Source: Candidatus Altimarinota bacterium (GTDB lineage Bacteria; Patescibacteriota; Gracilibacteria; UBA4473). Taken from it: a stretch of 42,242 nt of DNA. Both the position numbers and the translations under genes were made by a program. The notes beneath the pieces were generated by a model. That model was not told the origin of the DNA. It was given only the letters and a program-made list of their open reading frames with translations, and did not search any database. Location: positions 1-42,242 of the forward strand of contig JAHDHX010000006.1 in NCBI GenBank assembly GCA_020631075.1, given 5' to 3'. Positions within the stretch are counted from its first letter, which is position 1, and each line of letters opens with the position of its first letter. Below, piece by piece: positions 7,798 through 30,416 of this stretch.

Positions 7798-7881
7798 CCC
7801 CCCCTTTTCAACGTCTAAGCCACCTCTCCACAGCCTCTCTGCAGCTTCACAACCAAACACTCTACCACACAACCTGCTAGG

Positions 7882-7998
7882 CCTAGAACAAAACAACGGT
7901 GAAAAGGGGATCGAGAGTATCGTAAATTACCCTTTTGTTAGGTGTCTCACTATGTGAGGTTAAATAAGTATTTCGATACTGCAAATAATTATGGTGCA
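7882..7998. repeat. att-like repeat, left junction of element 1
   Basis: Copy 1 of a ~117-bp direct repeat. The last 66 bp (7933-7998) are almost identical to 22935-22999 and 30351-30416; the first half is more diverged. It contains two dyads: CTCAC-TAT-GTGAG (7946-7958) and AGTAT-TTCG-ATACT (7967-7980). It ends in TGGTGCA, the same bases that form CCA, discriminator and acceptor start at tRNA-Leu. This is interpreted as a hybrid attachment site. 7798-7881 holds nothing recognised. Confidence 0.75.
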
Positions 7999-8050
7999 GC
8001 AGACGGGTCTAGTACGCACAATGTCTATTGTGTTAACCAAGCATGAGACA

Positions 8051-9420: not shown

Positions 9421-10776
9421 ATGAAGGATTATGGAGGCATGTTAAAAGATAACCTATCGGAAACGGCAACATCACCATTGATTAACCAGCGCAAAATCAG
9501 AGGACTCAAAATCCCGAAGTACTACGCGCGAAAAATAGATGTGGGCAAAAAAGAGCAACTTCTCAAAAGCATTGAGGTTCATGGATGGAGTCAGCCCATT
9601 GTGGTAAATATGCACCCCAAGCGGAAGAATATCATCATAGATGGGATAGCAAGGTATCGGCTGGCAAAAGAACAAAAGTGGAAAGAGGTCTTGGTGTATG
9701 AAGTTGCAATCAAAGGTGTTGAGACTGAAAAAGCCTTGGCACTTCGTCTAAACCAAATCAAAGGTGAGTGGGATTTCGACGTTCTCAAAACTTTCGACAT
9801 AGAATTGCTCCTCGATACAGGGTTTGATGAAACAGATCTCAGTCAGATTTGGAATGATGTTTTGGGCACAACAGACGATCAGGCAGACATAGCGTCGATG
9901 ATTGCAGAAGCAAAAAAGAATCCTCTTACAAAAGTGGGAGATCTTGTCACATTGGGAAAGCACAAACTACTTTGCGGTGATGCACAGAACGCTAAACATA
10001 TACAACGGCTGATCGGCGAAGCCAGCATCGACATGGTGTATTGCGACCCGCCGTACGATATTGGTCTCAACTACAACACAGGGGTGAGCGGCCAAAAACA
10101 GTATGGCGGAAAAGAACGGGATAGTAGATCGAATGAGGAATTTGAACAATTATTGTATTCTTCATTGAGAAATGCGTTGTCACATACCAAAAATGATGCG
10201 CATATTTTCTACTGGTGTGATCAAAAGCACATAGGGACTCTGCAACGTATGTATGCCGAACAGAAAGTGAGCAACAAACGAGTCTGCCTGTGGGTGAAAA
10301 ATAACTTCTCCCTTACACCCAAAGTGGCGTTTCATAAAGCCTATGAAGCGTGTGTGTACGGCACGATTGGTAATCCCTACCTGGCCGATGGGGTCAACCT
10401 GAATGAAATATTGAACAAAGAAATTGAGATGGGCAATCGGGGGCTAGAGGATATTATCGATACCTTCGATATATGGCTGTGCAAGCGCTTACCGAGTAAC
10501 GAATACCAACATCCCACCCAAAAGCCGATCTCTTTGCATGAAAAGCCCCTGAAGCGGTGTACAAAAATACACGATACCGTGCTGGATTTATTCGGTGGAT
10601 CGGGTTCAACCTTGCTGGCATGTGAACAAATGCAACGCCGAGCCTTTTTGATGGAACAAGATCCTGTGTTTTGTGATGTGATTGTTCGACGCTGGGAAGC
10701 CATGACCGGCGAAAAAGTTCATCGTTCATCTCCAGCTGATCCCACCATTTCTTTATTACGCCCCTCACAATCATGA
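9421..10776 (+). CDS. ParB-like domain / DNA (adenine-N6 or cytosine-N4) methyltransferase
   Basis: 451 residues. Residues ~25-105 form a ParB/sulfiredoxin-like N-terminal domain (IIIDGIARYRLAKEQKW matches the family's GxxRxxAxxxxG region). The methyltransferase follows with motif IV DPPY near residue 208 and motif I DLFGGSGST near 388; the order IV before I is that of beta-class amino-methyltransferases. Such ParB-MTase fusions are common in phages and integrative elements, usually as orphan methylases placed before the terminase genes, exactly as here. The stop overlaps the next start (ATGA at 10773-10776). No Shine-Dalgarno motif precedes the ATG. The methylated site cannot be read from sequence. 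Confidence 0.9.
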   Translation: MKDYGGMLKDNLSETATSPLINQRKIRGLKIPKYYARKIDVGKKEQLLKSIEVHGWSQPIVVNMHPKRKNIIIDGIARYRLAKEQKWKEVLVYEVAIKGVETEKALALRLNQIKGEWDFDVLKTFDIELLLDTGFDETDLSQIWNDVLGTTDDQADIASMIAEAKKNPLTKVGDLVTLGKHKLLCGDAQNAKHIQRLIGEASIDMVYCDPPYDIGLNYNTGVSGQKQYGGKERDSRSNEEFEQLLYSSLRNALSHTKNDAHIFYWCDQKHIGTLQRMYAEQKVSNKRVCLWVKNNFSLTPKVAFHKAYEACVYGTIGNPYLADGVNLNEILNKEIEMGNRGLEDIIDTFDIWLCKRLPSNEYQHPTQKPISLHEKPLKRCTKIHDTVLDLFGGSGSTLLACEQMQRRAFLMEQDPVFCDVIVRRWEAMTGEKVHRSSPADPTISLLRPSQS

Positions 10777-11642
10777 ACACTTCATCCCTTCCAAAACAAG
10801 CCAAGAAAAAATCTACTCCCAACCTGGGAGCAAAACATCAGAGACAGTTTGTTCTCAATGACATCAGACATGGAACAGTCATACAACTCGGCAGACATAG
10901 GCTGCTATGTGGCAGTGCGACAGACAAAGCTCAAGTAGAGTCCTTCCTTCACAATGAAACGATTGATCTCATCTTAACTGACCCACCATACGGAGTCGCC
11001 GTAGTGGAGAGTCAAAAGAGTCTGTCCAATGAAATATCTACATCTGACAAGAACACGAAGCGGACAAAAAGAATGCACAAATCGATAGTGAATGATCAAC
11101 ATCAAACCGCCGATGAATTTGCAGAATTCTCACGACAATGGCTAGCAGTCTGCGCGTCGTACTTAGCGGAGAAGAACAGTTATTACATTTTCAACGCCGA
11201 TCCCCATATTTGCAGTCTGAAGGCAGGGCTTATACAAGCGGGGTACAACTGGAAACAATTACTCATCTGGGCGAAGACGAGTGCGAGTTTGAGTCGGTTG
11301 GATTATCTCTCGCAACATGAACTTATTGCCTACGGCTGGAGAGGAAAGCACTGTTTCAGAAGAACGAATGACAAATCGATACTCATTCAGCCGAAAACCC
11401 AAAAGAACACCCTGCATCCTACCATGAAACCCGTGGGCTTACTCCGTCGACTGATTCTCAACAGCTCGCAGGTAAGTCAAACCATCTATGACCCATTTGG
11501 AGGCAGTGGCAGTACGCTCATTGCTTGTGAGCAAACCCAACGCAGGTGTTTGATGGTGGAACTTGATCCTGAGTATTGTCGGGTCATTTGTCAGCGGTGG
11601 GAGCAGCTCACGGGCGATACTGTTACTTATTCATCTCTGTAA
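10773..11642 (+). CDS. DNA (adenine-N6 or cytosine-N4) methyltransferase
   Basis: 289 residues. Motif IV is TDPPYGVAV at ~69-77; motif I is DPFGGSGSTLIACE at ~240-253, again in beta-class order. The RCLMVELDPEYC segment after motif I is typical of this class. A short N-terminal extension (residues ~15-45, RHGTVIQLGRHRLLCGSA) matches the segment just before the catalytic domain of the upstream enzyme, so the two are related but this one lacks the ParB-like domain. It overlaps the upstream gene by 4 bp and is followed 3 bp later by the small terminase gene. Probably a phage-type orphan methylase that protects element DNA or marks packaging substrate. Confidence 0.9.
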   Translation: MNTSSLPKQAKKKSTPNLGAKHQRQFVLNDIRHGTVIQLGRHRLLCGSATDKAQVESFLHNETIDLILTDPPYGVAVVESQKSLSNEISTSDKNTKRTKRMHKSIVNDQHQTADEFAEFSRQWLAVCASYLAEKNSYYIFNADPHICSLKAGLIQAGYNWKQLLIWAKTSASLSRLDYLSQHELIAYGWRGKHCFRRTNDKSILIQPKTQKNTLHPTMKPVGLLRRLILNSSQVSQTIYDPFGGSGSTLIACEQTQRRCLMVELDPEYCRVICQRWEQLTGDTVTYSSL

Positions 11643-11645
11643 ATC

Positions 11646-12134
11646 ATGCCGAAGAAAACAGCAGCAGTTCGAGAGAAAACGGCAAAAAAAAAGGAGTTAG
11701 TACTCGAACAACTCAAGAAAACACCGATTACACAGGTTGTTTGTGAAAAAGTGGGTATTGCCCGATGTACATTCTATCGCTGGTGCAACGAAGACACAGA
11801 ATTTAAGGCTGAAGTTGAAAGGGCGAGGTCCATCGGATATGGACTTATCAATGATCTGGCGGAATCCCAGCTTGTGAAGAAAATTCATGAGGGGAATATG
11901 ACAGCCATTCTTTTTTGGCTGAAAACACATCATGCAAAGTACAAGACAGGTCTAGAACTCAATGCCTATTTTGGTAAAAATTCAGAACTGAATAAGGAGC
12001 AGAAAACAGTCGTACGAAAAGCATTGAAACTGGCGCAGTCTGTTTTGGTGCGACCAAAGCCGAAGGGAAAGAAAGCAGAAACATCCCAAGAGCATTCAAA
12101 TGTAAAAAATGACATTTCCCCCCCCAACACGTGA
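11646..12134 (+). CDS. terS: Terminase small-subunit-like HTH protein
   Basis: 162 residues. A basic N-terminus rich in Lys precedes a helix-turn-helix at ~25-55 (KTPITQVVCEKVGIARCTFYRW), then W-C-N-E-D-T-E-F-K-A-E-V-E-R-A and a helical segment with GNMTAILFWLK. This HTH plus 'disperse-substrate, single long helix' layout matches small terminase subunits that recognise pac/cos DNA. Its position directly before and overlapping (4 bp) the large terminase gene supports the call. The C-terminus is a Lys-rich tail. It could also be a transcription regulator of similar fold, but the operon context favours packaging. Confidence 0.75.
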   Translation: MPKKTAAVREKTAKKKELVLEQLKKTPITQVVCEKVGIARCTFYRWCNEDTEFKAEVERARSIGYGLINDLAESQLVKKIHEGNMTAILFWLKTHHAKYKTGLELNAYFGKNSELNKEQKTVVRKALKLAQSVLVRPKPKGKKAETSQEHSNVKNDISPPNT

Positions 12135-13627
12135 TGAAAACACTCATAGAAAAAATCGTGTCTGATAGTGGAGTGAGAGAGGCTGTCACTCAGCAAAGTT
12201 TCCTTTGGTTCTTCCATATTTACTTCGCGCACTACGTCACCCACAGCACAGCATCGTTTCACAAAGAGATCTTCGATGTAGCGCAGCAAGCAGACATCCC
12301 ACTCTCGGTGATTCTTGCCTTCCGTGGCTCGGGCAAATCTTCCATCATCTCCATGGCGTATCCACTGTGGGCAATGCTGGGCAGCCAACAAAAGAAATTT
12401 GTGTTGCTGGTGGGGCGAACGCAGCAGCAAGCCTACCAACACCTGAAGAATATTAAGGCAGAGATCGAAACGAATGAAGTGCTGATGCATGATTATGGGC
12501 AAGTATTGCAAACCAATGAACTGGGACAGAAAGCGTTAACATTTCCAAAGATTAAAGCCCGTATTCAGGCCGTGAGTATGGAACAAAGTATCCGCGGGAT
12601 ACGTCATCTGGCAACACGCCCCGATCTTATCATCTGTGACGATATTGAAGACTTAGCCTCAGTGCGTTTCCGTGAACAACGAGACAAAACCTACAACTGG
12701 CTGACGGGTGAGATATTGCCTGCAGGTGACATCAATACCAAAGTGGTGATCATTGGGAACCTTCTTCACGATGACAGCTTAGTACGACGATTTGAAAAGA
12801 AAATTGAGCTGGGTGAGATGTCTGGGTTGGTGCGAAGGTATCCATTTCTGACTGACGTTGGCGAAGCGTTATGGGCAGGAAAGTTTCCTGACGATGAAAG
12901 TATCCAAGCGCATAAGCAAAAAGTGGGTAATCATATAGCGTGGGAGCGAGAGTATTTACTCAACCTCGTCCCTGATGATTACCAATTGGTGCAAGCGGAC
13001 TGGTTCAAATCTTATAGATTTTGGGATGACTATGGTGACCTGACTCGCAGTAATGACGCAACGTTTAAAATCTCGATCGGTGTTGATCTCGCTATCTCAC
13101 AAAGAGACACAGCAGATTACACCACCATTGTTCCCGTGCTGGCAGTGTGGCGTCCAGTGGATGGTTCGAGAGTAAAAAGGCGAGATTATTACATCGGGAG
13201 TGACCGAACACTGGATGTGTATGTACTCCCCCAGGTCATTAACAAGCGGATGACGTTTCTCGAGACCAAAGAAAAGATCAAGGAAATAGTCGACTGGTGC
13301 GAAAGATACTTAGACAAAACACCCACCGTGCAGGTGGAGTCAGTGGGGTACCAACAATCGATGATAGAAGTGCTGGAAGAGGACGGCATAAAGGTGGAAG
13401 GCATGAAGACCCATGGACAAGATAAGCGAGCCAGGCTGGCTTCGGTGAGTCATTTGATTGAAAACGGACAAGTCTGGCTGCCCAGTGACGGAAGCAATAT
13501 CGAAGAACTTATTGAGCAAGTGGTCGGACTAGGCAAAGAATCTCATGATGATCTGGCGGACGCACTGGTGTATGCCTTGAAAGGGATCGGCAAAAAGCCA
13601 GTTCGGTTTATGTATGCCATCATTTAG
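12131..13627 (+). CDS. terL: Phage terminase large subunit (ATPase-nuclease)
   Basis: 498 residues, full length for the family. Walker A is FRGSGKSS at ~65-72. Walker B plus catalytic acid is LIICDDIED at ~165-173. The RNase H-like nuclease starts at GVDLAISQRDTADYT (~316-330), with the final acidic motif DDLADAL at ~472-478. All expected catalytic Asp residues are present, so the enzyme looks intact. TerL pumps DNA into a prohead and cuts it. No portal, protease or capsid gene occurs downstream, which is unusual for a terminase. The gene begins inside the terS stop (4-bp overlap). Confidence 0.93.
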   Translation: MMKTLIEKIVSDSGVREAVTQQSFLWFFHIYFAHYVTHSTASFHKEIFDVAQQADIPLSVILAFRGSGKSSIISMAYPLWAMLGSQQKKFVLLVGRTQQQAYQHLKNIKAEIETNEVLMHDYGQVLQTNELGQKALTFPKIKARIQAVSMEQSIRGIRHLATRPDLIICDDIEDLASVRFREQRDKTYNWLTGEILPAGDINTKVVIIGNLLHDDSLVRRFEKKIELGEMSGLVRRYPFLTDVGEALWAGKFPDDESIQAHKQKVGNHIAWEREYLLNLVPDDYQLVQADWFKSYRFWDDYGDLTRSNDATFKISIGVDLAISQRDTADYTTIVPVLAVWRPVDGSRVKRRDYYIGSDRTLDVYVLPQVINKRMTFLETKEKIKEIVDWCERYLDKTPTVQVESVGYQQSMIEVLEEDGIKVEGMKTHGQDKRARLASVSHLIENGQVWLPSDGSNIEELIEQVVGLGKESHDDLADALVYALKGIGKKPVRFMYAII

Positions 13628-14460: not shown

Positions 14461-17166
14461 ATGAGCATGAGTATTCACAAAGTTGAGCAACGTCTGAAAA
14501 CTATTGTTGAGGATTTTGATAAGCAGGAATTCATTTATGATTTATTGCTCGCTTATAAGGTTCCAAAGTCTACGGTAACACGACTAAAACAAGGCAAAGG
14601 AAATGTGAAACTCAATCTGGCAAAACGAGAAGATCGAATAATTCTGAAGAAGAAACTTTTTTTTCAAGAAATAGAAAGTGGAGACTTGCATGATGTGATT
14701 GATGATTTGCAAAAGGACAAACTTACCTCAGCCCACAAACCACGATTTTTGGTTGTTACAGATCATAAAACCCTCTTGGCAGTTGATCTAAAAACAAGTG
14801 ACACTTTGGATATTCCTATTGAAAAGCTCCCAGCGAATGCCGAGTTTTTCCTACCATGGATGGGCATGGAGAAAGCCTCAGCGTCTAATGAGAACATGGC
14901 AGATGTGAGAGCGTCTGAGCGGATGGCAAAACTGTATGATGAGCTGTGTAATGTAAACGAGGAATGGCTGAAAACACACCTGCACGACTTGAATGTGTTT
15001 TTGTCTCGGTTGCTTTTTTGCTTCTTTGCCGAAGACACCGGTATTTTTCCGGATGAAGTGTTTACTAAATCTATCAAATCACACACGCAAGATGATGGAA
15101 GTGATTTTAATGCGTACCTCGAAAAGCTCTTTGAGATGCTGGATACGCCAGAGGATAATACTGACCGAGATCAGCTGCCGGAGTATCTGAAAAAGTTTCC
15201 GTATGTGAATGGGAAGCTCTTTACCGATAAGCATGAGACACCGCAATTCAATGCGAGGGCAAGACGAATGGTGATAGAGTGCGGAAAGTTGAATTGGAAA
15301 GAGATTAATCCGGATATATTCGGGTCTATGCTGCAGGCGGTGGCACGAATCCGCCAAGGGAATGACGAAGACATAGACGGTAATGATGCGACCAAGCACT
15401 ACACGTCTGTGCCCAACATTATGAAAGTGATCAATCCGCTGTTTCTCGATGAGCTGAATGAGCAATATGAAAAAAGCCAAGATAGCGTAAAAGGACTTGA
15501 AAAACTGCTGATTCGGATGAGTAAGATTCGGATATTTGATCCGGCGTGTGGCAGCGGTAATTTCTTGATTATTGCGTATAAGCGACTACGAGAGCTGGAG
15601 ATAGAAATCGTGAAACGATTACAAGAGCTAGAAAAACATCGTTCGCTCAGGCTGTTTAGTGAGATACGCCTCGATCAGTTCTTTGGGATTGAGATAGATG
15701 ATTTTGCGGTGGAGACGGCCCGTCTGTCTCTGTGGCTGGCAGAGCACCAGATGAACATGGCTCAGCACAAAGCCTTTGGGCAGGCACAGCCCACCATACC
15801 GCTGAAGAAGGCTGGGAACATAGTGCATGCCAACGCCACACGAATAGAATGGGCAGAAGTGTGCCCCAAAAGCCAAGACCATGAGACGTATTTGCTGGGG
15901 AATCCACCATATAAGGGAGCAAGAAAGCAGTCTATAAAAATGAAATCTGATATAGAATTCTGCCTTGGGCACATTAAGGGGTCTGGAAATATCGATTATA
16001 TTGCACCATGGTTCATTAAGGGAGCTGAGTATATTCACCTTCAAGATTCAAAGTGTGCTTTTGTTTCTACTAATTCAATCTGTCAGGGAGTTCAAGTTTC
16101 ATTAGTTTGGTCTGAAGTCTTAAAATTAAATTTAGAAATCTGTTTTGCTCATCAATCATTTAGTTGGTCAAATAATGCGAAAGGTAATGCAGGGGTTACA
16201 GTTGTAATTATTGGTTTAGGAAATACTTCAAATGCTAAAAAGATTATTTTTAATGGAGAAAGAAAGGCTAATGTACAAAAAATATCTCCGTATTTAGTTG
16301 CGGGATCAGATTTATTTGTGACCGACCAATCCAAACCAATAAGTTTACTGCCAATTATGGAGTCAGGAAGTATGAATAATGGGAAGTCATTATTACTCAC
16401 AAAAAGTGAGAAAGATTTAATTCAGGACAATAGAGTTGATAGGTTTATAAAACCAATCATTGGGGGAGATGAATTTTTAAATGGAAAACAGAGGTATTGT
16501 TTTTGGATTTATGATTCAGACCTTGAAGCAGCTGAAAGCATACCTTTTTTAAAGGGAAAAATTGATAATATAAAAAAAGAGAGATTGGATAGTAAGCGAA
16601 AAGCAACACAAAAACTAGCAAATACCCCTCATAAGTTTGCAGAAATTCGACATAAAAATTCATCATATGTATTTATTCCCTTTGTATCATCAGAAAAGCG
16701 TAATTACATTGTAGCTGGATTCTTTCAGGAAGATACAATTCCAATTGCACCGCATCAAACTATCTACGATGCAGAGCCATGGGTATTTGGTGTGGTGTCA
16801 TCACGTATGCACATGACATGGGTTCGAGCCGTTGGTGGACGCATGAAAACAGATATCCGCTACTCATCTACGCTTTGCTACAACACATTTCCCTTCCCAC
16901 CCCTTACCGCACGGCAAAAAGAAGAAATAGAAGATCGGGTGTTTGATGTGTTAGACGAACGAGAAAAATATCCAGAAAAAACCATGGCTCAGCTATATGA
17001 CCCCGACAAAATGCCGGAGGGACTGCTGACAGCTCATCAGAACCTAGATGCCGCCGTGGAGCGAGTGTATCGTTCTCGTCCCTTTGAAAGTGACGAGGAA
17101 CGACTAGAATATCTGTTTGCTCTGTATGAGAAGATGACGGCTACAATTAAATCAGAAACAAAATGA
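14461..17166 (+). CDS. MmeI-like class I SAM-dependent DNA methyltransferase (type IIG-like)
   Basis: 901 residues. The N-terminal ~180 residues match the MmeI-type N-terminal region (EFIYDLLLAYKVPKSTVTRL, then KPRFLVVTDHKTLLAVD and an FFLPWMG segment); a PD-(D/E)xK nuclease site is not evident to me. Helical spacer to ~350. Gamma-class methyltransferase: motif I DPACGSGNF at 360-368 and motif IV NPPY at 481-484. Target-recognition region ~510-790, then a C-terminal FPFPPLT segment and helices. Adenine-N6 methylation is expected. First gene of a four-gene defence-type cluster; its stop overlaps the next start (ATGA). DNA for ~520-770 is visibly more AT-rich than either side, as if the recognition domain had been exchanged. 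The ATG at 14467 is an alternative start. Confidence 0.85.
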   Translation: MSMSIHKVEQRLKTIVEDFDKQEFIYDLLLAYKVPKSTVTRLKQGKGNVKLNLAKREDRIILKKKLFFQEIESGDLHDVIDDLQKDKLTSAHKPRFLVVTDHKTLLAVDLKTSDTLDIPIEKLPANAEFFLPWMGMEKASASNENMADVRASERMAKLYDELCNVNEEWLKTHLHDLNVFLSRLLFCFFAEDTGIFPDEVFTKSIKSHTQDDGSDFNAYLEKLFEMLDTPEDNTDRDQLPEYLKKFPYVNGKLFTDKHETPQFNARARRMVIECGKLNWKEINPDIFGSMLQAVARIRQGNDEDIDGNDATKHYTSVPNIMKVINPLFLDELNEQYEKSQDSVKGLEKLLIRMSKIRIFDPACGSGNFLIIAYKRLRELEIEIVKRLQELEKHRSLRLFSEIRLDQFFGIEIDDFAVETARLSLWLAEHQMNMAQHKAFGQAQPTIPLKKAGNIVHANATRIEWAEVCPKSQDHETYLLGNPPYKGARKQSIKMKSDIEFCLGHIKGSGNIDYIAPWFIKGAEYIHLQDSKCAFVSTNSICQGVQVSLVWSEVLKLNLEICFAHQSFSWSNNAKGNAGVTVVIIGLGNTSNAKKIIFNGERKANVQKISPYLVAGSDLFVTDQSKPISLLPIMESGSMNNGKSLLLTKSEKDLIQDNRVDRFIKPIIGGDEFLNGKQRYCFWIYDSDLEAAESIPFLKGKIDNIKKERLDSKRKATQKLANTPHKFAEIRHKNSSYVFIPFVSSEKRNYIVAGFFQEDTIPIAPHQTIYDAEPWVFGVVSSRMHMTWVRAVGGRMKTDIRYSSTLCYNTFPFPPLTARQKEEIEDRVFDVLDEREKYPEKTMAQLYDPDKMPEGLLTAHQNLDAAVERVYRSRPFESDEERLEYLFALYEKMTATIKSETK

Positions 17167-18293
17167 ATTTAAAAAAATTAAAAGACACAGCTGAAACAAC
17201 GATCTCAAACATAAGAGAAAATGGGCAATATCCTAATGAGAATGATCTGTTTGATTACAAAGAAAAATTAAATATTGGAAAAGAAGAAGATAGTATTGAA
17301 ATATTTATGATAAATTTTGCAAAAGATATTATTTCTTTTTCAAACGCTAATGGAGGAATACTTTTATTGGGAATAAAAGAACAGAATGGAATTAAAAGTG
17401 AAGTTGGCTTAAATAAAAAAGACATTGAAATCTTAAGCTCAGTAGATACTGAACAAATCAACGCTAAGTTTAAAAAAATACTTCAATCCAATGTGGCAAT
17501 AGACATTCAGCCTTTTAATATAGGATCTAAAAATTGCTTCTATATCTTAATTGAAAAAAATACTAGTACTTTAATTCCTGTATCAGATCAAAAAAAATAT
17601 AAGTTAAATAAGGGAGAAATTTGGTATAGAGTTTCAAGTAATAATCTACATGCAAACCAAAATACATCTAATATGGATGAATTCGTAAGATCTAAATCCA
17701 ATGAAAAAAGTAAAGAATTTATGGAAATATGGTCAAAGATATTACCAGAAATGTTCGATATAAATCCAAAAGAAATACTTTTAATTAATCCAATTAAAAA
17801 TCAGGTATATGGATTTAATGCAAAAAATAATTCTTTGTCAGGAAGTAATATAGAAATAGACAAAAGCGAAACAGGAGTATTTAATATAATACTAAATGCT
17901 ATCCATGCAGGAGAAATTGGGAAGATAACAACAAACAAAGGTAAGCCAATTTATAAGATTGTTGGCGAAATAAAAGAGGCCGCACCACACATTATTTTAA
18001 CGAGTTTAGAATCAGAAGCGAAGGCATTATCACATTATAATTTTACTAATGTGCAGCTAAAACAAGTAATCTATTATTTAGGCTGGGTTTCCAATGCTAA
18101 ATTTAAAGTAAGAAATCCTGAGACTACTGAAATAAATGGAAATGAATTTATTTGGATTGAAACAACTGATCACTCAAAACAAACAACAAAAGTTTTCTTT
18201 TCTCCTAAAGCTATAGGTGAGGTCGTAAATATAATAAATAACGTTTCTCTTCATGGAGATATCTTTAATAAAAAACTTAAACCTAAAAATTAA
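17163..18293 (+). CDS. AlbA_2/Schlafen-like domain protein
   Basis: 376 residues. Residues ~28-165 carry the AlbA_2 (divergent AAA_4, Schlafen-related) pattern: D-Y-K-E-K-L near 31, KDIISFSNANGGILLLGI at ~55-72, and a WYRVSSNN strand near 157. The other ~200 residues are unassigned. Proteins of this fold bind nucleic acid and some Schlafen relatives cleave tRNA; here only an accessory nucleic-acid role in the defence cluster can be inferred. It starts inside the methyltransferase stop codon, so it is co-transcribed. The gene is far more AT-rich than its neighbours, which suggests separate acquisition. Confidence 0.75.
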   Translation: MNLKKLKDTAETTISNIRENGQYPNENDLFDYKEKLNIGKEEDSIEIFMINFAKDIISFSNANGGILLLGIKEQNGIKSEVGLNKKDIEILSSVDTEQINAKFKKILQSNVAIDIQPFNIGSKNCFYILIEKNTSTLIPVSDQKKYKLNKGEIWYRVSSNNLHANQNTSNMDEFVRSKSNEKSKEFMEIWSKILPEMFDINPKEILLINPIKNQVYGFNAKNNSLSGSNIEIDKSETGVFNIILNAIHAGEIGKITTNKGKPIYKIVGEIKEAAPHIILTSLESEAKALSHYNFTNVQLKQVIYYLGWVSNAKFKVRNPETTEINGNEFIWIETTDHSKQTTKVFFSPKAIGEVVNIINNVSLHGDIFNKKLKPKN

Positions 18294-18329
18294 AATTCAG
18301 TATGTCGGGATTTCCGAAATACTGAATTT
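18293..18329 (+). promoter_or_regulatory. Strong hairpin between AlbA_2 and helicase genes
   Basis: AAATTCAGTAT (18293-18303) pairs perfectly with ATACTGAATTT (18319-18329). TCGG (18305) and CCGA (18314) extend the stem inside the loop. It is not followed by a T-run, so it is a possible attenuator, RNA-processing site or operator rather than a classic terminator. Confidence 0.6.
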
Positions 18330-18347
18330 AATAATCCAAACTAAACC

Positions 18348-20267
18348 ATGCCAGATTTAGTCCGCAGAACATACGCCCAAACTGGGAAAAGCAAATCTAC
18401 CAACGAACTGGGGATGCGAGAGATGCAAGAACGTGCCTACTCCAAACGTGATGCTCAGTATTTGCTGATCAAAGCTCCGCCGGCTTCCGGTAAAAGCCGA
18501 GCGTTGATGTTTATTGCCTTGGATAAAATCCATAACCAAGGCGTAAAAAAAGCCATTGTGGCTGTACCTGAAAAATCCATTGGCGGTTCATTTGGTCACA
18601 CCGAACTCATGAAATATGGGTTCTTTGCTGACTGGAATCCAGATGACCGGTGGAACCTGTGCACTCCGGGTGGAGAAAAAAGCAAAGTGCAGGCGTTCCT
18701 CAAATTTATGGAAAGTGAAGAAAAGATCCTTATCTGTACGCATGCGACTTTGCGATTTGCCTTTGAGCATATTGATGAAAGCAAATTCAACGATGTACTA
18801 CTGGCAATAGATGAATTTCACCATGTGTCAGCAGATAAGGAGTCAAACATCCTTGGAAGCCTGCTTCATAGCGTTATGACAAAATCAGACGCACATGTGG
18901 TAGCAATGACAGGGTCATACTTCCGTGGGGATGGTGTACCGGTGTTGCTTCCTGAGGATGAAGCTAAGTTTGATCGAGTGACCTATAACTACTACGAACA
19001 GCTCAATGGGTATGAGTACCTCAAATCTCTTGGGATTGGATACCATTTCTATACCGGTCGCTACACAGGTGCAATCCCTGAGGTGCTAGACACCGATAAA
19101 AAAACTATCTTGCACATCCCCAATGTAAACGCTGGAGAGTCTACAAAAGACAAGTACAACGAAGTTGGGCATATTCTTGATAGTATCGGGGTAGTAGAAA
19201 AACAAGACAGTCAGACAGGGGTGATTTACTTAAAGCGTCACACAGATGGAAAAACAATCAAAGTGGCCGATCTAGTGGATGACATGAAGAGCCGTGATCA
19301 TATCATGGAATATCTGCGTAACATTGAAGGTCCAGAAGATATTGATTTAATTATCGCCTTGGGCATGGCGAAAGAGGGGTTTGATTGGCCGTATTGTGAA
19401 CACGCTCTCACGGTGGGCTACCGAGGCTCACTCACAGAGGTTATTCAGATCATCGGTCGTTGTACTCGTGATAGTGACAACAAAGATCACGCTCAATTCA
19501 CTAACCTCATCGCCCAGCCAGATGCCATGGATGATGATGTCGTGGTTGCGGTAAACAACATGCTCAAGGCTATTACTTGTTCACTTCTGATGGAGCAAGT
19601 CATGGCTCCGGTGTTCAAATTTCGAACAAAGCAATCTGATGAGGATAAATCTGAAGCTGGTACGCTAAAAATCAGAGGATTCAAAGAACCAAAAACAGAA
19701 CGAGTGGAGCAAATCCTCGAATCAGATCTTAATGATATTAAGGCAACGATCCTGCAAGACAGTAAAATGCTTAAGGCGCTTCCAGGCAATATTGATCCGG
19801 AGGTCATAAACAAGGTTATGATCCCGAAAATCATTCAGGAAAAATATCCGGAGTTGAGTAATGATGAGATTGAGCAGGTGCGTCAGCATGTAGTGGTGGA
19901 TAGTGTGGTTAAAAATGGTGAAATCAAAACTACCGGAGACAAGAAATTTATCCGGATGGCGGGCAAGTTTGTGAATATTGATGACCTCAATATTGACCTA
20001 ATTGATCGAATTAATCCATTCCAAGAAGCCTTTGAGGTACTATCAAAGTCAGTTACATCACAGACGCTACGAGTCATCCAAGAATCTATTGAAATGACTC
20101 GGATTCAAATGACAGATGAGGAGGCTTTGCTTCTTTGGCCCAAAATCAAAGACTTTGTAAAAACAAAAGGCAAGCACCCAAGTGTATCTTCACCAGATCC
20201 ATTAGAGAAACGAATGGCAGAGGCTGTTATTTACCTCAAACGATTACGACGAGAAGAAAAGATTTAG
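18348..20267 (+). CDS. SF2 DEAD/DEAH-type helicase of defence cluster
   Basis: 639 residues. Helicase motifs are clear: I APPASGKS (43-50), II DEFHH (155-159), III MTGSY (187-191), VI QIIGRCTR (367-374). The two RecA-like domains end near residue 400. The C-terminal ~240 residues are helical and charged, of unknown function. SF2 translocases in restriction-type systems move along DNA and feed a nuclease. The next gene encodes a GIY-YIG nuclease 14 bp downstream, and a methyltransferase lies upstream, which supports a restriction or other anti-phage role. Confidence 0.88.
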   Translation: MPDLVRRTYAQTGKSKSTNELGMREMQERAYSKRDAQYLLIKAPPASGKSRALMFIALDKIHNQGVKKAIVAVPEKSIGGSFGHTELMKYGFFADWNPDDRWNLCTPGGEKSKVQAFLKFMESEEKILICTHATLRFAFEHIDESKFNDVLLAIDEFHHVSADKESNILGSLLHSVMTKSDAHVVAMTGSYFRGDGVPVLLPEDEAKFDRVTYNYYEQLNGYEYLKSLGIGYHFYTGRYTGAIPEVLDTDKKTILHIPNVNAGESTKDKYNEVGHILDSIGVVEKQDSQTGVIYLKRHTDGKTIKVADLVDDMKSRDHIMEYLRNIEGPEDIDLIIALGMAKEGFDWPYCEHALTVGYRGSLTEVIQIIGRCTRDSDNKDHAQFTNLIAQPDAMDDDVVVAVNNMLKAITCSLLMEQVMAPVFKFRTKQSDEDKSEAGTLKIRGFKEPKTERVEQILESDLNDIKATILQDSKMLKALPGNIDPEVINKVMIPKIIQEKYPELSNDEIEQVRQHVVVDSVVKNGEIKTTGDKKFIRMAGKFVNIDDLNIDLIDRINPFQEAFEVLSKSVTSQTLRVIQESIEMTRIQMTDEEALLLWPKIKDFVKTKGKHPSVSSPDPLEKRMAEAVIYLKRLRREEKI

Positions 20268-20281
20268 TGCCTTCATAAACC

Positions 20282-21472
20282 ATGAAAAAAGAAGAATTAT
20301 TGCAATTGATTTCAGAAGATGAATTTGGACTTCTAAATGTTACGTCCAAGAGCAGTGCTATGTCTGAAGACGATCGATTGATTGCTTCTTTTGAGGAGAT
20401 TACTGCTTTTGTAGAAAATACGGGACATGAACCAAAACCCAGCAAGCAAATTAAGGAAAGACGTCTTTATTCACGGCTCAAAGGAATTCGTGGAAACTTA
20501 AAAAATGCAGGCGTATTAATTGAGAGCGGATATGACAAATTCAACCTCCTTGAAGAACAAGCAAAGGAGTTACAAAGCGTCAAAGATATTATGGAAGATG
20601 ATGATCTGGGGATACTTGATGACCCAACAGGTATTTTTAGTATCAAACAAGAAGCCCTTATCCGACATCGAAAATCGGCTGAGTTTGTTGCCCAGAGAAA
20701 GGCATGCAAGGATTTCGATGAATTTGAGCCTCTATTTCTGCAATGTCACCAAGATCTGAAGAATGGCCGTAGACAACTCGAAAGAAATTTTAGAAGTGAT
20801 CAAAAAATACAACAAGGGCGTTTTTGCCTGATTAATGGCATGCTTCTTTATCTTGCAAAGGTCGTTCGAGATAGAAAAGATGTAAAAGGAACGCAAGATG
20901 GTAGGCTTCGAGTGATTTTTGAAAATGGAACGGAATCCAATATGCTTTTAAGAAGTCTGTCTAGAAGAATACGAGCGGAAAATGGGAAAATGATAACAGA
21001 TCCTAACGGGGATTTAGAGACTGAACTTTCAAGAAAAGCAGGATTAATAACAGATAAAGACCAACAAGCAGGGTACATCTATGTTTTGAAATCCTTGAGT
21101 CAAAATGAACAAATAGCGAGCTTAAAAGACTTATATAAAATTGGTTTCACAACTGGATCCGTAGAGTCAAGAATTTCAAATGCAGAAAAAAAACCAACGT
21201 ACCTCATGGCGCCTGTAGCTATTGTGGCAACCTTCAAGTGCTTTAACTTCAATCCTCAAAACTTAGAACAAAAACTTCATGCATTTTTTGGTAAATCTTG
21301 TTTAAATATTGATGTATTTGATAAAAATGGAAAGCGACACTCTCCACGAGAATGGTTTGTTGCACCTTATGAAATAATAAAACAAGTTATAAGTTTGGTA
21401 GTCGAGAACAAAATCAATGATTTTCGATTCAATAAAAAATTAAATCTAATTGAAAGACTAGTCCTCGACTAA
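20282..21472 (+). CDS. T5orf172-type GIY-YIG nuclease
   Basis: 396 residues. The C-terminal ~130 residues are a T5orf172/GIY-YIG domain: GYIYVLKS at ~264, LYKIGFTTGSVESRI at ~283-298, NLEQKLHAFF near 325 and REWF near 355 supplying the late Glu. GIY-YIG enzymes cut DNA through a single metal ion. The N-terminal ~250 residues are helical and charged with no family I recognise; they may contact the helicase or DNA. This is the last gene of the cluster, 55 bp before the recombinase gene. Confidence 0.82.
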   Translation: MKKEELLQLISEDEFGLLNVTSKSSAMSEDDRLIASFEEITAFVENTGHEPKPSKQIKERRLYSRLKGIRGNLKNAGVLIESGYDKFNLLEEQAKELQSVKDIMEDDDLGILDDPTGIFSIKQEALIRHRKSAEFVAQRKACKDFDEFEPLFLQCHQDLKNGRRQLERNFRSDQKIQQGRFCLINGMLLYLAKVVRDRKDVKGTQDGRLRVIFENGTESNMLLRSLSRRIRAENGKMITDPNGDLETELSRKAGLITDKDQQAGYIYVLKSLSQNEQIASLKDLYKIGFTTGSVESRISNAEKKPTYLMAPVAIVATFKCFNFNPQNLEQKLHAFFGKSCLNIDVFDKNGKRHSPREWFVAPYEIIKQVISLVVENKINDFRFNKKLNLIERLVLD

Positions 21473-21526: not shown

Positions 21527-22822
21527 ATGGAAACTTCAAGAAAAAGAGCCGAAGCACCGCTTCGGTATTGTATATACGCCCGCAAGTCGTCTGAAAGTGA
21601 CGAAAAGCAAGCCATGAGCATTGAGGCACAAATACGAGAGATGCAACAAATTGCGGAGCGAGAAAATTTAAATGTCGTTGACGTACGCAATGAAGCAAAA
21701 TCTGCGAAATCTGTTGGCGTTCGCCCTGTCTATAATCAGCTCTTACAAGACATTGAAGATGAAGATATACAGGGCATTATAACGTGGGCACCTGATAGAT
21801 TGAGCAGGAATGCCGGTGATTTAGGCAGGCTCGTCGATCTCATGGACGCAGGCAAACTGCATGAAATACGAACACATGGACAGAATTTTAGGAATAACCC
21901 CAACGAGAAATTCTTACTGATGATACTCTGCAGCCAAGCCAAGCTTGAGAATGATAACAGAGGAAAAAATATTCGACGAGGCATGAGAGCTGCTTGTGAG
22001 AGTGGGAGAAAACCAGGTATGCCAGCATTAGGGTACGCCATTAAAAGAGAAGGATCACGGTATCGTGGTGCTTGTGAAATTGTTCACGACGAAGAGAGAA
22101 TCCATCACATCAAAAAATTGTTTCACCTAATACTCGACAAAGATATGAGCGGACGCGAAGCTTGGCACCAAGTAACCAGTGAAGGTCTAAGAACACGCAA
22201 AGGAAAAGTTCTCACCCGCAGTATGGTGTATCGCATTCTCAATGACACATTCTACTATGGAGAGTTCGAATACCCGAAACAATCTGGAGTTTGGTACAAA
22301 GGCAATCATAAACCAATAATCACCAAAAAACAGTTTTTAGAAGTCAGAAAACGACTCGCAACCTACGAGAAAAGTAAATGGGGTGCCAAAACATTCTATT
22401 ACTCAAAGTTACTTAAATGCGGCAGGTGCGGCTCTGGCATCATCGGTGAAGAACACATAAGAGAACGCAAAAGTGGTGTGAAAAAATATGTGTATTACAA
22501 ATGTTCACGCTATGGAGGAAAGCTACAATGTAACGAACTCTACATTAGAGAGGAAGACCTGATTGATCGAATATCTGAGTATATTGATGCCTATCGTGAT
22601 ATCGACATAAAAGTAAATAGCAAAATCATTCAGCAAATTCAGATGCTCAATGAGATTAATAAAATAGCAGGAATTAGAACTGTTCTAGAGCCAATAGATT
22701 ATATCAAGCAGGTCCTTGTAAATGGAAGCGGCAGACAAAAAGCGCAGTTACTCAAATGCATTGATAAGAAGTTCTTTCTTCAAAATGGTGAAATCTTCCT
22801 AGGGAAGAACGAAGAGAAATAA
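21527..22822 (+). CDS. Large serine recombinase (integrase) of element 1
   Basis: 431 residues, intact. The resolvase/invertase catalytic domain starts with YARKSS, catalytic Ser21, and has the DRLSRN motif near 88-93. A 'recombinase' domain follows at ~165-270 (LGYAI, TRSMVYRILNDTFYYGEF). Zinc ribbon: C-G-R-C at ~298-301, then paired Cys at ~329 and ~337. The C-terminal coiled segment is short. Such enzymes integrate and excise elements between short attP and attB sites. The gene is last in the element, 61 bp from the att-like repeat, a typical integrase position. 29524-30238 is a decayed near-copy. Confidence 0.95.
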   Translation: METSRKRAEAPLRYCIYARKSSESDEKQAMSIEAQIREMQQIAERENLNVVDVRNEAKSAKSVGVRPVYNQLLQDIEDEDIQGIITWAPDRLSRNAGDLGRLVDLMDAGKLHEIRTHGQNFRNNPNEKFLLMILCSQAKLENDNRGKNIRRGMRAACESGRKPGMPALGYAIKREGSRYRGACEIVHDEERIHHIKKLFHLILDKDMSGREAWHQVTSEGLRTRKGKVLTRSMVYRILNDTFYYGEFEYPKQSGVWYKGNHKPIITKKQFLEVRKRLATYEKSKWGAKTFYYSKLLKCGRCGSGIIGEEHIRERKSGVKKYVYYKCSRYGGKLQCNELYIREEDLIDRISEYIDAYRDIDIKVNSKIIQQIQMLNEINKIAGIRTVLEPIDYIKQVLVNGSGRQKAQLLKCIDKKFFLQNGEIFLGKNEEK

Positions 22823-22883
22823 TACGAACATTTCGCAGTTCTTCGCAAATAATCCGAATGCACCTGAATGTGAGGGTTTAGGG

Positions 22884-22999
22884 TCTAGAACAAAACTCAG
22901 GTGAAAAGGGGCTTCAGCACATCAAAAAACACCGTTTTGTTAGGTGTCTCACTATGTGAGGTTAAATAAGTATTTCAATACTACAAATAACTATGGTGC
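22884..22999. repeat. att-like repeat, junction of elements 1 and 2
   Basis: Copy 2 of the repeat. The distal half is nearly identical to copy 3 (30300-30416). It keeps the dyads CTCAC-TAT-GTGAG and AGTAT-TTCA-ATACT. It ends TGGTGC and is then followed by CTAATTAGGG..., unlike the other two copies. The remaining 23000-23131 carries an 8-T run (~23033-23040) but no gene. Confidence 0.8.
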
Positions 23000-23191: not shown

Positions 23192-26100
23192 ATGAAAATA
23201 TTAAGAAGAGTTCTGAAAAAACAAAAACGGTATATCTACAAACAGGTACATCAAAAAAAAATCAATTCCATACATGACGATGAAGTCACAAAAGAAAAGG
23301 AACTAGAATTGATTGAAAAAGATGGAGAAAAAGAAATAGCGGGGATAACTTCATCAATAAAGTCCCCAATAAAGCAGCTTATTCAAACTGGATCTGGTCA
23401 AAAAATAGAAGCGTTACAACAATGTACAACCAAAAACATCGAAGCGCTAATAAACGATGATGTAGGGTACACCACAAAAGTGCGATACGCAGAGGATGGC
23501 TCAGTATGGGTAGAGCCAGAACTAGAAAGAGTTCTACGATTATCAGAAAAGGAGCGACTCAGAGAACTACAAAAACGACTGAAGGACAAACCATTTAAAC
23601 TTAATATACAACTCTGGAATGAAGAGACGGATACTCCCACCGATGAAGGGAAAATAGTAATAAAAATACACAAAACAGGAACATGGAACACCGATAGAGC
23701 AGTCGGAAAAACTGGCTATAGCAGACAAGATTTATTGAGAAAACGAGATATGATACTTGTAAAGCTACTGGGCGCCGATGGGACAACTGAACAGCAACTA
23801 GCAACCTGGAAAATACAGAACAGATCGATGGTGAAAATCGCCAATATGATAGTGCAAAACGGATATGCAGGAGAAATACAACCACCGAGTACTCGTTGGG
23901 AAATGTGGACCGCAATACTCAAAGAAAAAGGGCAAGAAGTAGTAGCATTTAACGAATATCGTGACCAAATAGAATCTGTGCCGCTAAGCACAATAGAAGC
24001 GATAAAAAATACTCTCGATATGTGGGACTTCTCAGAAAAATCAGAAGTTATATTGGAAGAATTGGCAAAAATGTCCCCGAAAGATGTCGAAGCTCTGCAT
24101 CATGACGTGTTACAAATTCAAGACTTCTATAAAGAAGAGCATATTCAATGCACAATCAAATCTGGCACAGCCACCATGACACAAGAGTTGTCTGAAAACC
24201 CGCACGGAGGGATGTGGTTCAAGCTACTATTGATTATGGCGCATGAAAACGGAGAAAATATTCCCCCTGGAGTGCTCCAACATCTGTATGAAAATTCAGA
24301 AAAAATAACCCATCTATCTGGTGCAGAAATACCTGACACAGACGCACTCACAGCGGCACAAAAAAATCTACCAGAATCGGAGAAAAGACTCATAAGAGAG
24401 AAACAGTACGAACATTTTATGGTGGCAAACCTTCGAGCGTCTTTACTGATGACGCTGTACGAAAAAGAGGAAGAGCACGGAGCCGAGTTTGAACGATTTT
24501 TTCGAGTGTTCTATCCAAACGATCAAGAGATATTCTCTTACCGCTATGACATCGGACATGGGGAGTCTCTTTATAACTTTTATAAACAGACACAAAGCCT
24601 GGTAAAAAAAGCTGATGCGCTTAATACGCCTGTGAATACACTCCAGACATTATTTTACGAAAAAGATGACACAATAGGTCATATCGTCTGTACGGATGAT
24701 TTTGATATTGCGCTCTTTACCGCTTACAAATCGGATTTGGATCAAGTACCAGATGAAGACTGTCATGGTTCCTACACGACAGAATCACATGCACATAGTT
24801 GCATTGAAGGGTTCTATACCCACCAAAAAAAAATAAAAACGCTGTATAAGAACAACATAAATCGCCTAATCAGGCTAGCAATAATAGATCAGCTGCGTGA
24901 AGGAGAGCTGACCCATGAAGCAACTGCAGAAGTGTCTGAGGACGATATGTTTGGAGAAGAAATACAACGATTTGGTCGCGAACCCTATGGCAGAGCCGTA
25001 CAACAGGTGTTACAAAACCAGTACGAGCAGTCGTGGCCGGGTGAAAAGACCGCGCAAGAAGAATGTAAAAAGTTATGTCTGGAGTTATTTGCGCAAGGAG
25101 GATTTGAAAAACGACGACAAGAATATAAAGCCGCAGACCAAGAAACCCGCGCAGTGCTTGACCGCCTAATGCACCGATCGGAATTGTACCCAGCTGGAAT
25201 TACAGAATTGCTGAAAGGGCTCCAGACCCAACCAGAATTCTTAGCGTTATCATACGACGAAATAGGACAAAAAAGAGAGACCCATCCAAATGATCCAAAC
25301 TGGAAAACCAGGTATTTAGACGATCAAAAAATATTGGCATATAAAAAGGTACCAGATGCAACTATGCTGCTAAGTCACTATGACTATGAATGTGCCTGCA
25401 ATAAAATAATACCAACTGAGACACTGGCAGAACTAAAAAAGCAGCCAAATAAACTCTTAAACCATGTATTAAGCGATCCAATACTGCGAAAATATTTGTT
25501 ACCGCGATATCGGAATGCAGAGCAACACAAAACCAGTGCAAATATTGCCACCCTCAACAGGTATTTAAAGGAAAATAGAGACTTGTTTGAACGGCTGATC
25601 GAGCAGCGGTCACCAGAAAATGATGAAGTAATAGCACTCTTGCTGATCAACGCCGGGGCGCAGAGCCCCCTACGTGTTGAAATGATTAAAGATGACTTTT
25701 TAGACTTTGCAAAACACTGCCTACAACGTGCTCCGAATGCCAGCGAAAGTGCCAACAAAGAATCAATAATAGAACAAATACTAAATTTGTATAAAAAAAT
25801 ACCAGATAATCTACGTATATTTTTAGGGTTTGAAAGCGGAAAAACCATAACAGAAAGAATCGAGAAATTAGAACCAGAAAATAAGGTTCTCGGGAAAGAC
25901 CCCCTTATAAAAGAGCTTACCCATAATGCTTACGCCGATATAATAGCCGACATATCAGCTTTCGAAATTACTGACACAAACCGAAACAAGTTTGAAATGT
26001 TTATCAAAAGTTCTTTGGGCAAAAAAATTTTTGATTTCACAATTAAAAATCCAAAAGCAGTCACAAATAATTGGGACGAAATACAAAATATATATCCAAA

Positions 26101-29100
26101 ATTTTTTGAAGATAACTTAACGGTTTTGTTCGACTACACAATGAAAGAAGATCCTGACAGGGCAGTTAAGAAAATTATTAACCCTTGGAGCCCCGAAAAA
26201 GTCTTGCAGCACTTCAGAAACAGTGTCTTTATGGGGAAGTATCCCTCTAACTCTAAAATCTATATAGCGCTGATACAAAAAATTGGAGCGGATAGTATTT
26301 TAAAATTAATACCTGATGCTTTAGTCTTCCGAATTTATGCAGAACAAAAATCAACACTAACTGAAAAACTAAATGAAACTGATGCTTTTTTCCTGAAATT
26401 ACGTGTAGCACTCAGTGAAGATAATAACTGGCAACCAGAGGAGCTAGTAGAGTATGTATATGGAGAAGAATCTGAAGCCATCGAGCTCAATATCTTGAGG
26501 GACAGATCACTTGCTGAAAAGTATCTGCGTTTTTTCCCCCATGCACATGATAGTGTACCAACAAACAATCAGTTGCTTCTAAATATTGCCACCGACCATG
26601 CTGATTCTTTCATAAGATATTTCCCACATCTAAAATATGCTAACTCAATCACTGGCTATGAAAATATGCTCAAAGAAGCAGCTAGCAAAAGTGCAGAAAA
26701 ATTTTTCAGAAGATTTCCACATCAGCAGCACACAAACATACCCGGCTATAGATCCGCATTAATATCGAGTGGTAAATCCGAGAAAGCTTTCCTCAAAACT
26801 TTCTCACATGCAGAACACTTTCAAAGTCCCGGGTATGAGGAAACGCTGAAAAATGCCGCCCAAAATTCTCCAACAATATTTTTAAAAAAATTCCCACATC
26901 GCCAACTTCATAACAAGTTAAGCTACTATCCAGAATTACTCACGCAGGTGTTTTCACAAATATCAGGGATGAACAATGTCACAGCGGCAGAAATTAAAGC
27001 TGCGTGCAAACTACAATCTGAACCAGCGTTTGAAAATCAAGATATCTTGTCAGAATTTTGTAAGCCTGATACATACCCAAATAATACAATCCTATGGTGG
27101 ATAAGAAATCCGGAACGGCAAGCATTGTTAAGAGATTTGCAATTTTTTCATCCGAAGACACTAGAACTCTACAAACCATCGCCGCTATTTGATTATGAAA
27201 AATACAAGGGATTGAAAACGTACACAGCAACCGAACGTAAACACCTAATTACATGCGCAAAAAAAGTCTGGAACGAGATATACCGACATAAAATAAATTA
27301 CAAATACAATTCACCCATAAATTTTATATTATCAATTGCTGAAAATAAACAAAAAGAGGCTCTCTATGACGAGATATCTCCCTTATATAATGTACAATAT
27401 GACGATAAATACAAAATGAAAGAACTGCACAAGCATGACCAACAATGGATGACAGAATTGCCATCGGCGTTGCTCGAAAGTGTATTGACGTACATGCAAG
27501 AAGCCGAGACTGACAAACACCCACTACCAAAACATCACGAGTTTTTGATTACGTTTGATGGTTGGCTTGAAGCAGAAAAAATTGACCAAACAGACGAAGA
27601 AATAATGAAAATAAAACGGAAGGAGTATGATCAAGGTTTTTCAAAATGGCGTGAACGAAAAAAGTTTTTAGATTTTGTGGAACTCACAAATTATCAGCTA
27701 CAAACACAAGCCGAAGTTGATATCATTAAACGTTTAGCCAAGACACAAAATACTGATGAAGGCGCTCAATTATTTAAATACATGGTAAGCTGTCTTGCGC
27801 CAGAATACACACCTGCTGAGCTGTTGCCAGTATATGAAGTGTATACGAAACGGTTCGGGCTCGCGCAGCTCCCCCTAGTGTTTCGGTACTGTGTAGAGCT
27901 TATGAACGGCACGATAAATCCAGAGATAACAAATATAATAGATCAGGCAGGCGAGAAAGGGATTGACCAACTAAAAACCGTCGTGTTGCAAAACAAACAG
28001 AATCTGATAAATAAAGAAGAGGCGATAGAACCCTCAAAACTGAGTAATCTGGAACTTGAGTCATATAGATATCTGACGCGATTTGATAGTAGTAGCTGGT
28101 CAAGAGGTTATAACTTTCAAGCACTAATACAGGCGTTGTATCAAGGAATAAAAACACAAGAAATTGCTCCGGTAAGCCCAGAGTATCACACACAAGAAAT
28201 ACAACTAAGGGCGACACCCAAAAATGTCGATTTTGAGGTGTTTTTAGTGCCATACAAAAAGCTGACCGCGATGATAGATTATGGCCTCAAACATAAACAG
28301 TTTGAGAACTATCGTGCAGAGGTTGGATCAATATTAGGAACAGACAAAACCCACAAGCAAGCCGCGCTTGACCAAATGACACAACAGCAAGCCACACTCG
28401 AGCAACTGACAACCAGATCTTCGGACCAAGAATCAACACTAAAACAATTAGTGTCTTCAATCCCGCAGTTACGAAAACAAATTTTAAAAAGCGACACACT
28501 AACGCGAAAAATAGAAAAAACGAAAGGTCCGAGTGAACTGGTGGTGGTGTTGTCACAGGCAAAATATCAAACTGCGGAGATGAAACAGCTGATTCAGAGT
28601 CTTATAATCTGGCAGTACATAGAGCAGTATCCAAATATGGAAGAAGAGATCTCACGAATAGTCGCTGAGCCAAAATTACTGATAGAGAACGTACAAACAC
28701 TCAGTGAAATGATAAACCAAAGACTTAAAAACGAACTTTTGGAAGACAAAAGTGTAGGAGCACATCAAGAGGAATCTCTGTTTCCAGAATTAGAAAACAA
28801 ACAACGAGGATATCTACGACAAATGCTAAACACCAACACACTGAAAGACATACAAAAAGCTGTCAGCTTACAAAAAGGCGAATTACTAACTGACTCATTT
28901 GTAATACAGCCCTCGCGTGCGATGATGGGTGAATGCTCCGGGTACATCGGAGATGCTTGCTGGACTACTAATGAACAAATTTTGAAAAACAACCCAGACA
29001 TGACGCCCTATGTGCTCATTAAAGAAAGAGCAACCAATCCGGAACTAATTGGTGCCGGATTACTGTTCGAACGGAGCATAAACAACGGCCAAGATACCGT

Positions 29101-29523: not shown

Positions 29524-30238
29524 ATGAAAACACCAAAAACACGTGCTGAAGCACCGCTTCGGTATTGTATCTATGCGCGCAAGTCATCTGAAAGTGACGA
29601 AAAGCAAGCCATGAGCATTGAGGCATAAATACGCGAGATGCAAGCTATTGCAGAGAGAGAAAATTTAAATGTCGTTGACGTACGGAATGAAGCAAAATCT
29701 GCGAAATCTGTTGGCGTTCACCCTGTTTATAATCAGATCTTCCAAGACATCGAAGATGAAGATATACAGGGCATTATAAAGTGGGCCCTCGATAGATTGA
29801 GCAGGAATGCTGGTGATTTAGGCAGGCTCGTCGATGTCATGGACGCAAGCAAACTGCATGAAATACAAACACATAAGAGAACGCAAAAGTGGTGTAAAAA
29901 AATATGTGTATTACAAATATTCACGCTATGGAGGAAAGCTGCAATGTAACGAACTCTACATTAGAGAGGAAGACCTGATTGATCGAATATCTGAGTATAT
30001 TGATGCCTATCGTGATATCGACATAAAAGTAAATAGCAAAATCATTCAGCAAATTCAGATGCTCAATGAGATTAATAAAATAGCAGGAATTAGAACTGTT
30101 CTAGAGCCAATAGATTATATCAAGCAGGTCCTTGTAAATGGAAGCGGCAGACAAAAAGCGCAGTTACTCAAATGCATTGATAAGAAGTTCTTTCTTCAAA
30201 ATGGTGAAATCTTCCTAGGGAAGAACGAAGAGAAATAA
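29524..30238 (+). pseudogene. Serine recombinase pseudogene of element 2
   Basis: Near-copy of 21527-22822 with at least three lesions. Codon 35 is TAA (29626-29628), where the intact gene has CAA. A 581-bp internal deletion joins positions equal to 21871 and 22452 of the intact gene at a shared AACACAT and shifts the frame, removing the rest of the catalytic domain, the recombinase domain and half of the zinc ribbon. A zinc-ribbon Cys has become Tyr (YYKCSR to YYKYSR). The DNA after the deletion is almost identical to the intact copy, so decay is recent or the copies were homogenised. Confidence 0.93.
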
Positions 30239-30299
30239 TACGAACATTTCGCAGTTCTTCGCAAATAATCCGAATGCACCTGAATGTGAGGGTTTAGGG

Positions 30300-30416
30300 T
30301 CTAGAACAAAACTCAGGTGAAAAGGGGCTTCAGCACATCAAAAAATACCGTTTTGTTAGGTGTCTCAATATGTGAGGTTAAATAAGTATATCGATACTGC
30401 AAATAATTATGGTGCA
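30300..30416. repeat. att-like repeat, right junction at tRNA-Leu
   Basis: Copy 3 of the repeat. Its last bases overlap the tRNA-Leu 3' end (30410-30416). The distal part matches copy 2; the last ~25 bp match copy 1. One arm of the first dyad is altered (CTCAA-TAT-GTGAG). The DNA between the pseudogene and this repeat (30239-30299) repeats 22823-22883. Confidence 0.8.

Follow-up and report, generated by a model that had tools for sequence, protein, structure and literature searches.

Here we show that a cluster of four co-directional genes in a 42,242-nt stretch of DNA from a Candidatus Altimarinota bacterium (hereafter, the window) is built on a conserved core of three genes, encoding an MmeI-family methyltransferase (M), an SF2 helicase (H), and a T5orf172/GIY-YIG nuclease (T), and that the remaining gene, an SLFN_AlbA_2 gene (A) lying between M and H, is outside the conserved set. 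As judged from domains and gene order, the locus belongs to the DnmA-YeeB-YeeC kind, and we consider it likely that it represents a three-subunit restriction-modification-type defence system of that kind, accompanied by one guest gene. The three-gene core is already known, and the fresh point of the locus is the slot that receives the guest, in which such systems carry exchangeable genes that are for the most part linked to defence.

The four open reading frames are intact and uninterrupted, all lie on the forward strand, and together span exactly positions 14461-21472, as described in a previous sequence-only reading of the window, whose domain predictions were confirmed by Pfam. M (14461-17166, 901 aa) is an N6-adenine DNA methyltransferase of the MmeI family that includes a target-recognition domain (TRD) of its own, A (17163-18293, 376 aa) carries PF04326, H (18348-20267, 639 aa) is YeeB-like with DEAD, ResIII, and Helicase_C domains, and T (20282-21472, 396 aa) is YeeC-like with MUG113 and T5orf172 matches. 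The start of A overlaps the stop of M by 4 nt, as ATGA, and because the two genes are also co-directional, A is probably co-expressed with M. H and T are separated by 14 nt, while the gap between A and H contains a near-perfect 33-nt hairpin on the forward strand (18295-18327; -17.5 kcal/mol by RNA folding, z -5.7), found at this single site in the genome, which could be a terminator, an operator, or a scar of guest insertion. Scans for sigma-70 promoters and terminators returned sites no more frequently than in shuffled sequence.

A search anchored on H recovered 80 loci, one of them archaeal and the others spread over many bacterial phyla, and the addition of loci found by methyltransferase-anchored searches brought the number of H-containing loci to 95. 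T lies directly downstream of H in 94 of them and is also visible in the extended sequence of the 95th (L092); only two of the 94 have more than 150 nt between H and T. M is located upstream of H on the same strand in 81 of the 95 loci; in the remaining 14, the upstream sequence is no longer than 2.4 kb or contains just a fragment of M, with M placed downstream in L044. Because this order recurs across unrelated phyla, in about 95 loci, the grouping of M, H, and T is not due to chance. The sequence-only reading had named rare co-occurrence of the genes elsewhere as grounds for rejecting its idea; M, H, and T are instead nearly always found together, with A outside the conserved set.

M retains all five domains of the MmeI family (Pfam: methyltransferase 5e-102, TRD 2e-71, N-terminal 7e-27, spacer 4e-26, C-terminal 1e-24) and aligns over residues 91-899 with the solved structure of MmeI (5hr4) at 597 bits. 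The methyltransferase motifs DPACGSGNF (360) and NPPY (481) are present, and at the position of the N-terminal PD-ExK nuclease site the ExK is absent, with FFQEIESG in its place. MmeI itself, a Type IIL/IIG enzyme, shares the methyltransferase, TRD, spacer, and C-terminal domains with M, but combines them with a PD-ExK nuclease in a single chain and lacks H-T partners. An alignment of 100 M proteins showed the D...ExK site of MmeI_N in 22 of the 24 that lack H-T neighbours, whereas none of the 75 with such neighbours retains it. A tree calculated from the methyltransferase domain only, leaving out the N-terminal columns, separates the solo from the H-T-associated class at a single branch (SH-aLRT 99), and both apparently solo proteins lacking ExK (L097 and L111) nest on the H-T side. 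In L097, extension of the sequence revealed H-T behind a 7-kb slot, while the M of L111 sits at a contig end in an assembly without H. Overall, methyltransferase-anchored searches recovered the M-H-T order again and found H-T with every ExK-less M but this one. Conversely, an H homologue was missing from 23 of 24 genomes selected for a solo or unpaired M, and in the 24th H was beside a second M locus.

The association between absence of ExK and presence of H-T has a Fisher value of 5e-20, yet this value is not a count of independent events, because the association reflects a single evolutionary split. On these alignments, the clade of the MmeI family to which M belongs has lost its N-terminal PD-ExK nuclease. 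Earlier work, from 2009, had already noted the nuclease loss in a set of MmeI homologues (cited in PMC7261158); the present analysis extends the test to about 100 sequences. Given that H and T are present where ExK is absent, cutting has very probably moved from M to H and T. This clean split, with the nuclease kept in solo enzymes and lost in company with H and T, amounts to a testable claim about conversion of a one-chain enzyme into a multi-subunit one. Among the domains of M, conservation is lowest in the TRD (mean identity 0.40 vs 0.545 for the methyltransferase domain), as would be expected where the target motif changes. No relatives of M were found in a viral-contig scan. The same genome also encodes a second, solo MmeI-type enzyme with an intact ExK (L109, G000:C7:56000-72000), together with a single H.

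H and T both look functional from their conserved residues. H matches DEAD (1.2e-8), ResIII (6e-6), and Helicase_C (4e-5), and the motifs APPASGKS, DEFHH, TGSYFRGD, and QIIGR.TRDS are conserved in 95 homologues, with Walker A, DEAH-type, motif III, and motif VI residues at least 90% identical. Relatives of H in phage records amounted to two short fragments. T is matched by MUG113 (1e-13) and T5orf172 (4e-12), with the GIY-YIG domain at its end, where 29 homologues share G264, Y267, K286-I287-G288, R297, E329, and W358 without exception and where the AlphaFold model has pLDDT mostly above 90 (residues 261-390). Fold searches with T gave weak small-barrel matches for residues 161-242 (Z up to 6.4), with no GIY-YIG protein among the matches listed; the GIY-YIG assignment is based on Pfam and the conserved residues.

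The sequence-only reading knew of no named system with this gene set. The core has in fact been published, as dnmA-yeeB-yeeC, with a Type I-like restriction-modification system proposed (PMC7261158, PMC9973331), and it is this that places the window locus in a known kind; PADLOC-DB 2.0.0 nevertheless holds no model for the three-gene system and names only M, as Type IIG (985 bits, against 115 for DrmMI). In Bacillus subtilis, DnmA lacks a nuclease motif and produces GACGm6AG, with YeeB and YeeC encoded after it (PMC7261158), and synteny of the three genes is conserved (PMC9973331); later papers trace the first description of the cluster to Morgan 2009. The window contains the corresponding elements, an ExK-less MmeI-family methyltransferase followed downstream on the same strand by a helicase and then a T5orf172/GIY-YIG protein, in the same order and likewise on mobile DNA. 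This likeness rests on domains and order, with the B. subtilis proteins compared by their published description; the B. subtilis control genome does match the MmeI_Mtase and MmeI_N profiles. The window copy differs in having the AlbA_2 guest between M and H, and B. subtilis YeeB and YeeC differ in being reported without C-terminal stretches and without activity. In practice, defence-gene tools recognise such a locus as nothing more than a Type IIG enzyme, which leaves helicase and nuclease nameless in a set that is very widespread.

We propose that the TRD of M would recognise an asymmetric DNA motif, at which M would methylate one adenine (m6A) and so mark the DNA of the host. Where the mark is missing, M would be expected to recruit H, which may move along the DNA using ATP, and T would then cut by means of its GIY-YIG domain, with H and T together standing in for the PD-ExK nuclease lost by the clade of M. 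Should the core be defeated, the AlbA_2 guest may act as a backup or guardian effector. This proposal draws on the gene content, order, and conservation computed here, on the ExK loss with its matching clade split, and on slot variability and mobile context; from relatives come the formation of m6A by DnmA (PMC7261158), on which we base the predicted m6A activity of the window M, and the phage phenotype of deletions in Vibrio crassostreae (cited in PMC9973331). The earlier suggestion of a restriction-like arrangement on a mobile element, in which methylation, translocation, and cutting fall to different subunits, is supported. Counting against the proposal, cleavage by H and T is reported in no paper that we found, and L111 combines an ExK-less M with an assembly that has no H.

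Work on B. subtilis led its authors to conclude otherwise, namely that the methyltransferase is an orphan serving gene regulation and that its neighbours are idle relics. DnmA methylates 99.7% of its sites and alters expression of some genes, the cluster restricts neither plasmid uptake nor three phages, and deletion of yeeB or yeeC has no effect on those phages (PMC7261158, PMC9973331). We regard this as an improbable account of the window locus, where H and T are intact, with active-site residues that are conserved across phyla, and belong to a pair that stays together in nearly all loci, unlike relics. Furthermore, the V. crassostreae deletions are described, in a citation within PMC9973331, as giving higher sensitivity to some phages.

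The preferred defence reading resembles Type I restriction-modification (HsdM-HsdS-HsdR) in that modification and ATP-dependent translocation reside in separate parts. It differs in that specificity lies inside the methyltransferase chain, through the TRD of M, and in that helicase and nuclease are two proteins, the latter GIY-YIG rather than PD-(D/E)xK; Pfam found neither HsdS nor HsdR, with its fused PD-(D/E)xK nuclease and helicase, in the cluster. Exclusion in the manner of BREX or DISARM, with methylation marking self and H and T blocking replication rather than cutting, is quite unlikely: PglX and DrmMI are among the distant relatives of M, and Schlafen backup effectors are found at BREX loci as well (PMC12839542), but neither PglZ nor BrxC nor DrmA/B/C was found among the window genes scanned with Pfam, and conservation of the T active site favours cutting over a replication block.

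In 45 of the 81 loci with M upstream of H the slot between them is filled, and in 36 M is directly beside H. Clustering of slot proteins from the 80 helicase-anchored loci, with one representative of each cluster identified by Pfam and some members being fragments or perhaps loosely joined, gave RhuM-like guests in 15 loci and an AlbA_2 + HATPase_c_4 cluster in 14. AlbA_2 proteins are thus among the two commonest guests, and not the unusual partner that the sequence-only reading took A to be. Fic, Bro-N, YhcG, AAA_13 (PrrC-like), OLD-like AAA_15, KAP, Abi_C, AIPR, PDDEXK_4, and HTH-M78 peptidase proteins also occur in the slot, and several of the guests are phage-defence candidates according to PADLOC. 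Some slots, those of L020, L030, L035, and L153, contain at least three guests at once and reach about 7 kb, resembling a small defence island within one operon.

A itself matches SLFN_AlbA_2 (PF04326) at 3.5e-13 and 50.6 bits, against a cut-off of 25.3, with nothing further by Pfam and no recognisable match for its C-terminal half. Its base composition (GC 27.1%, GC3 18.6%) is very different from that of M, H, and T (GC 36-43%, GC3 28-43%). Searches of plasmids, of viral contigs, and of 59 related genomes returned no close relatives, and none of the 80 helicase-anchored loci contains a close homologue. The alignment of A to other slot AlbA_2 proteins is too weak to place catalytic acidic RNase residues, and the predicted fold of A alone has a pLDDT of 33. 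That A might be an essential subunit of a true four-gene system, as its overlap with M and probable co-expression could suggest and as the earlier reading had it, is very unlikely in light of the empty slots, the different occupants found elsewhere, the absence of close homologues, and the deviating GC; slot statistics and GC led us to reject it as a conserved subunit.

That A is a guest, separately acquired into a variable slot, is well grounded, because slot variability, base composition, the lack of close relatives, and the sharing of guest families with Type I and BREX loci all point the same way. On two plasmids, RhuM, KAP, and AlbA_2/RecG-like genes lie in or beside Type I hsd operons, and a survey of HEPN proteins recorded PrrC, RhuM, and Fic/Doc with restriction-modification operons (PMC3710099). 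A 2026 BREX survey described Schlafen-type genes beside BREX cores and read them as backup effectors (PMC12839542); these resemble A in accompanying a methylation-based defence core, but possess a C-terminal histidine-kinase-like domain and a wHTH, neither of which Pfam finds in A. Association with defence loci is not general in the AlbA_2/RecG-like family, since its relatives on rhizobial plasmids sit among metabolic genes and not beside restriction-modification genes. A is most likely a Schlafen-type backup or guardian effector, such a role being an inference.

More tentatively, the M-H slot might be a docking place for tripwire genes (AlbA_2, PrrC-like, RhuM, Fic, YhcG) that fire only when a phage disables the ATP-dependent multi-part restriction core, with M-H-T, Type I, and BREX loci trading guests from a common pool; we hold this to be possible rather than probable. 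In the open-access literature we found no description of an M-H slot with rotating guests, which is weak evidence of novelty. For those searching for backup defences, the slot supplies guest genes as an ordered list, and several of these genes also occur in Type I operons.

The cluster is the cargo of a 15-kb recombinase-borne element in a tRNA-Leu gene. The adjoining integrase of the earlier reading proved to be a large serine recombinase (21527-22822, forward strand; Resolvase, Recombinase, and Zn_ribbon_recom by Pfam), placing the cluster on a mobile element. GC content, about 58% in the chromosome, drops to 32-48% from about 6-8 kb to 30.4 kb of the window. Within this region, a repeat unit of roughly 120 bp, att-like and ending in tRNA-Leu 3' sequence, occurs in three direct forward-strand copies, at 7880-8000 (ending in TGGTGC), 22882-22999 (85% identical to the left copy), and 30298-30416 (87% to the left copy), the last overlapping the 3' end of tRNA-Leu(TAG) on the reverse strand (30410-30494). 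The arrangement reads as two integrative elements in tandem at one tRNA-Leu attachment site, with the left repeat starting the first and the middle repeat ending the first and starting the second. Element 1 (15 kb) contains methyltransferases, terminase genes, M-A-H-T, and the serine recombinase, and element 2 (7.4 kb) consists mainly of a 2074-aa open reading frame, accompanied by a broken recombinase.

In element 1, the stretch 9421-13627 encodes a ParB_N-methyltransferase fusion, a second N6_N4 methyltransferase, and small and large terminase subunits (11646-13627, forward strand, PHROG), with no recognised capsid genes nearby, and could be a phage remnant or a satellite-like element. The 2074-aa frame of element 2 (23192-29416) has no Pfam match above the cut-off (weak LPD25), and is followed by a broken version of the element 1 serine recombinase (29524-30235). 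Two more pairs of related serine recombinases occur in the genome (G000:C7:17302-19929 and 175273-178084), located at low-GC edges. In same-class relatives (G319, G328, and G334) the recombinase frames contain many in-frame TGA codons, which suggests that TGA is recoded in their class.
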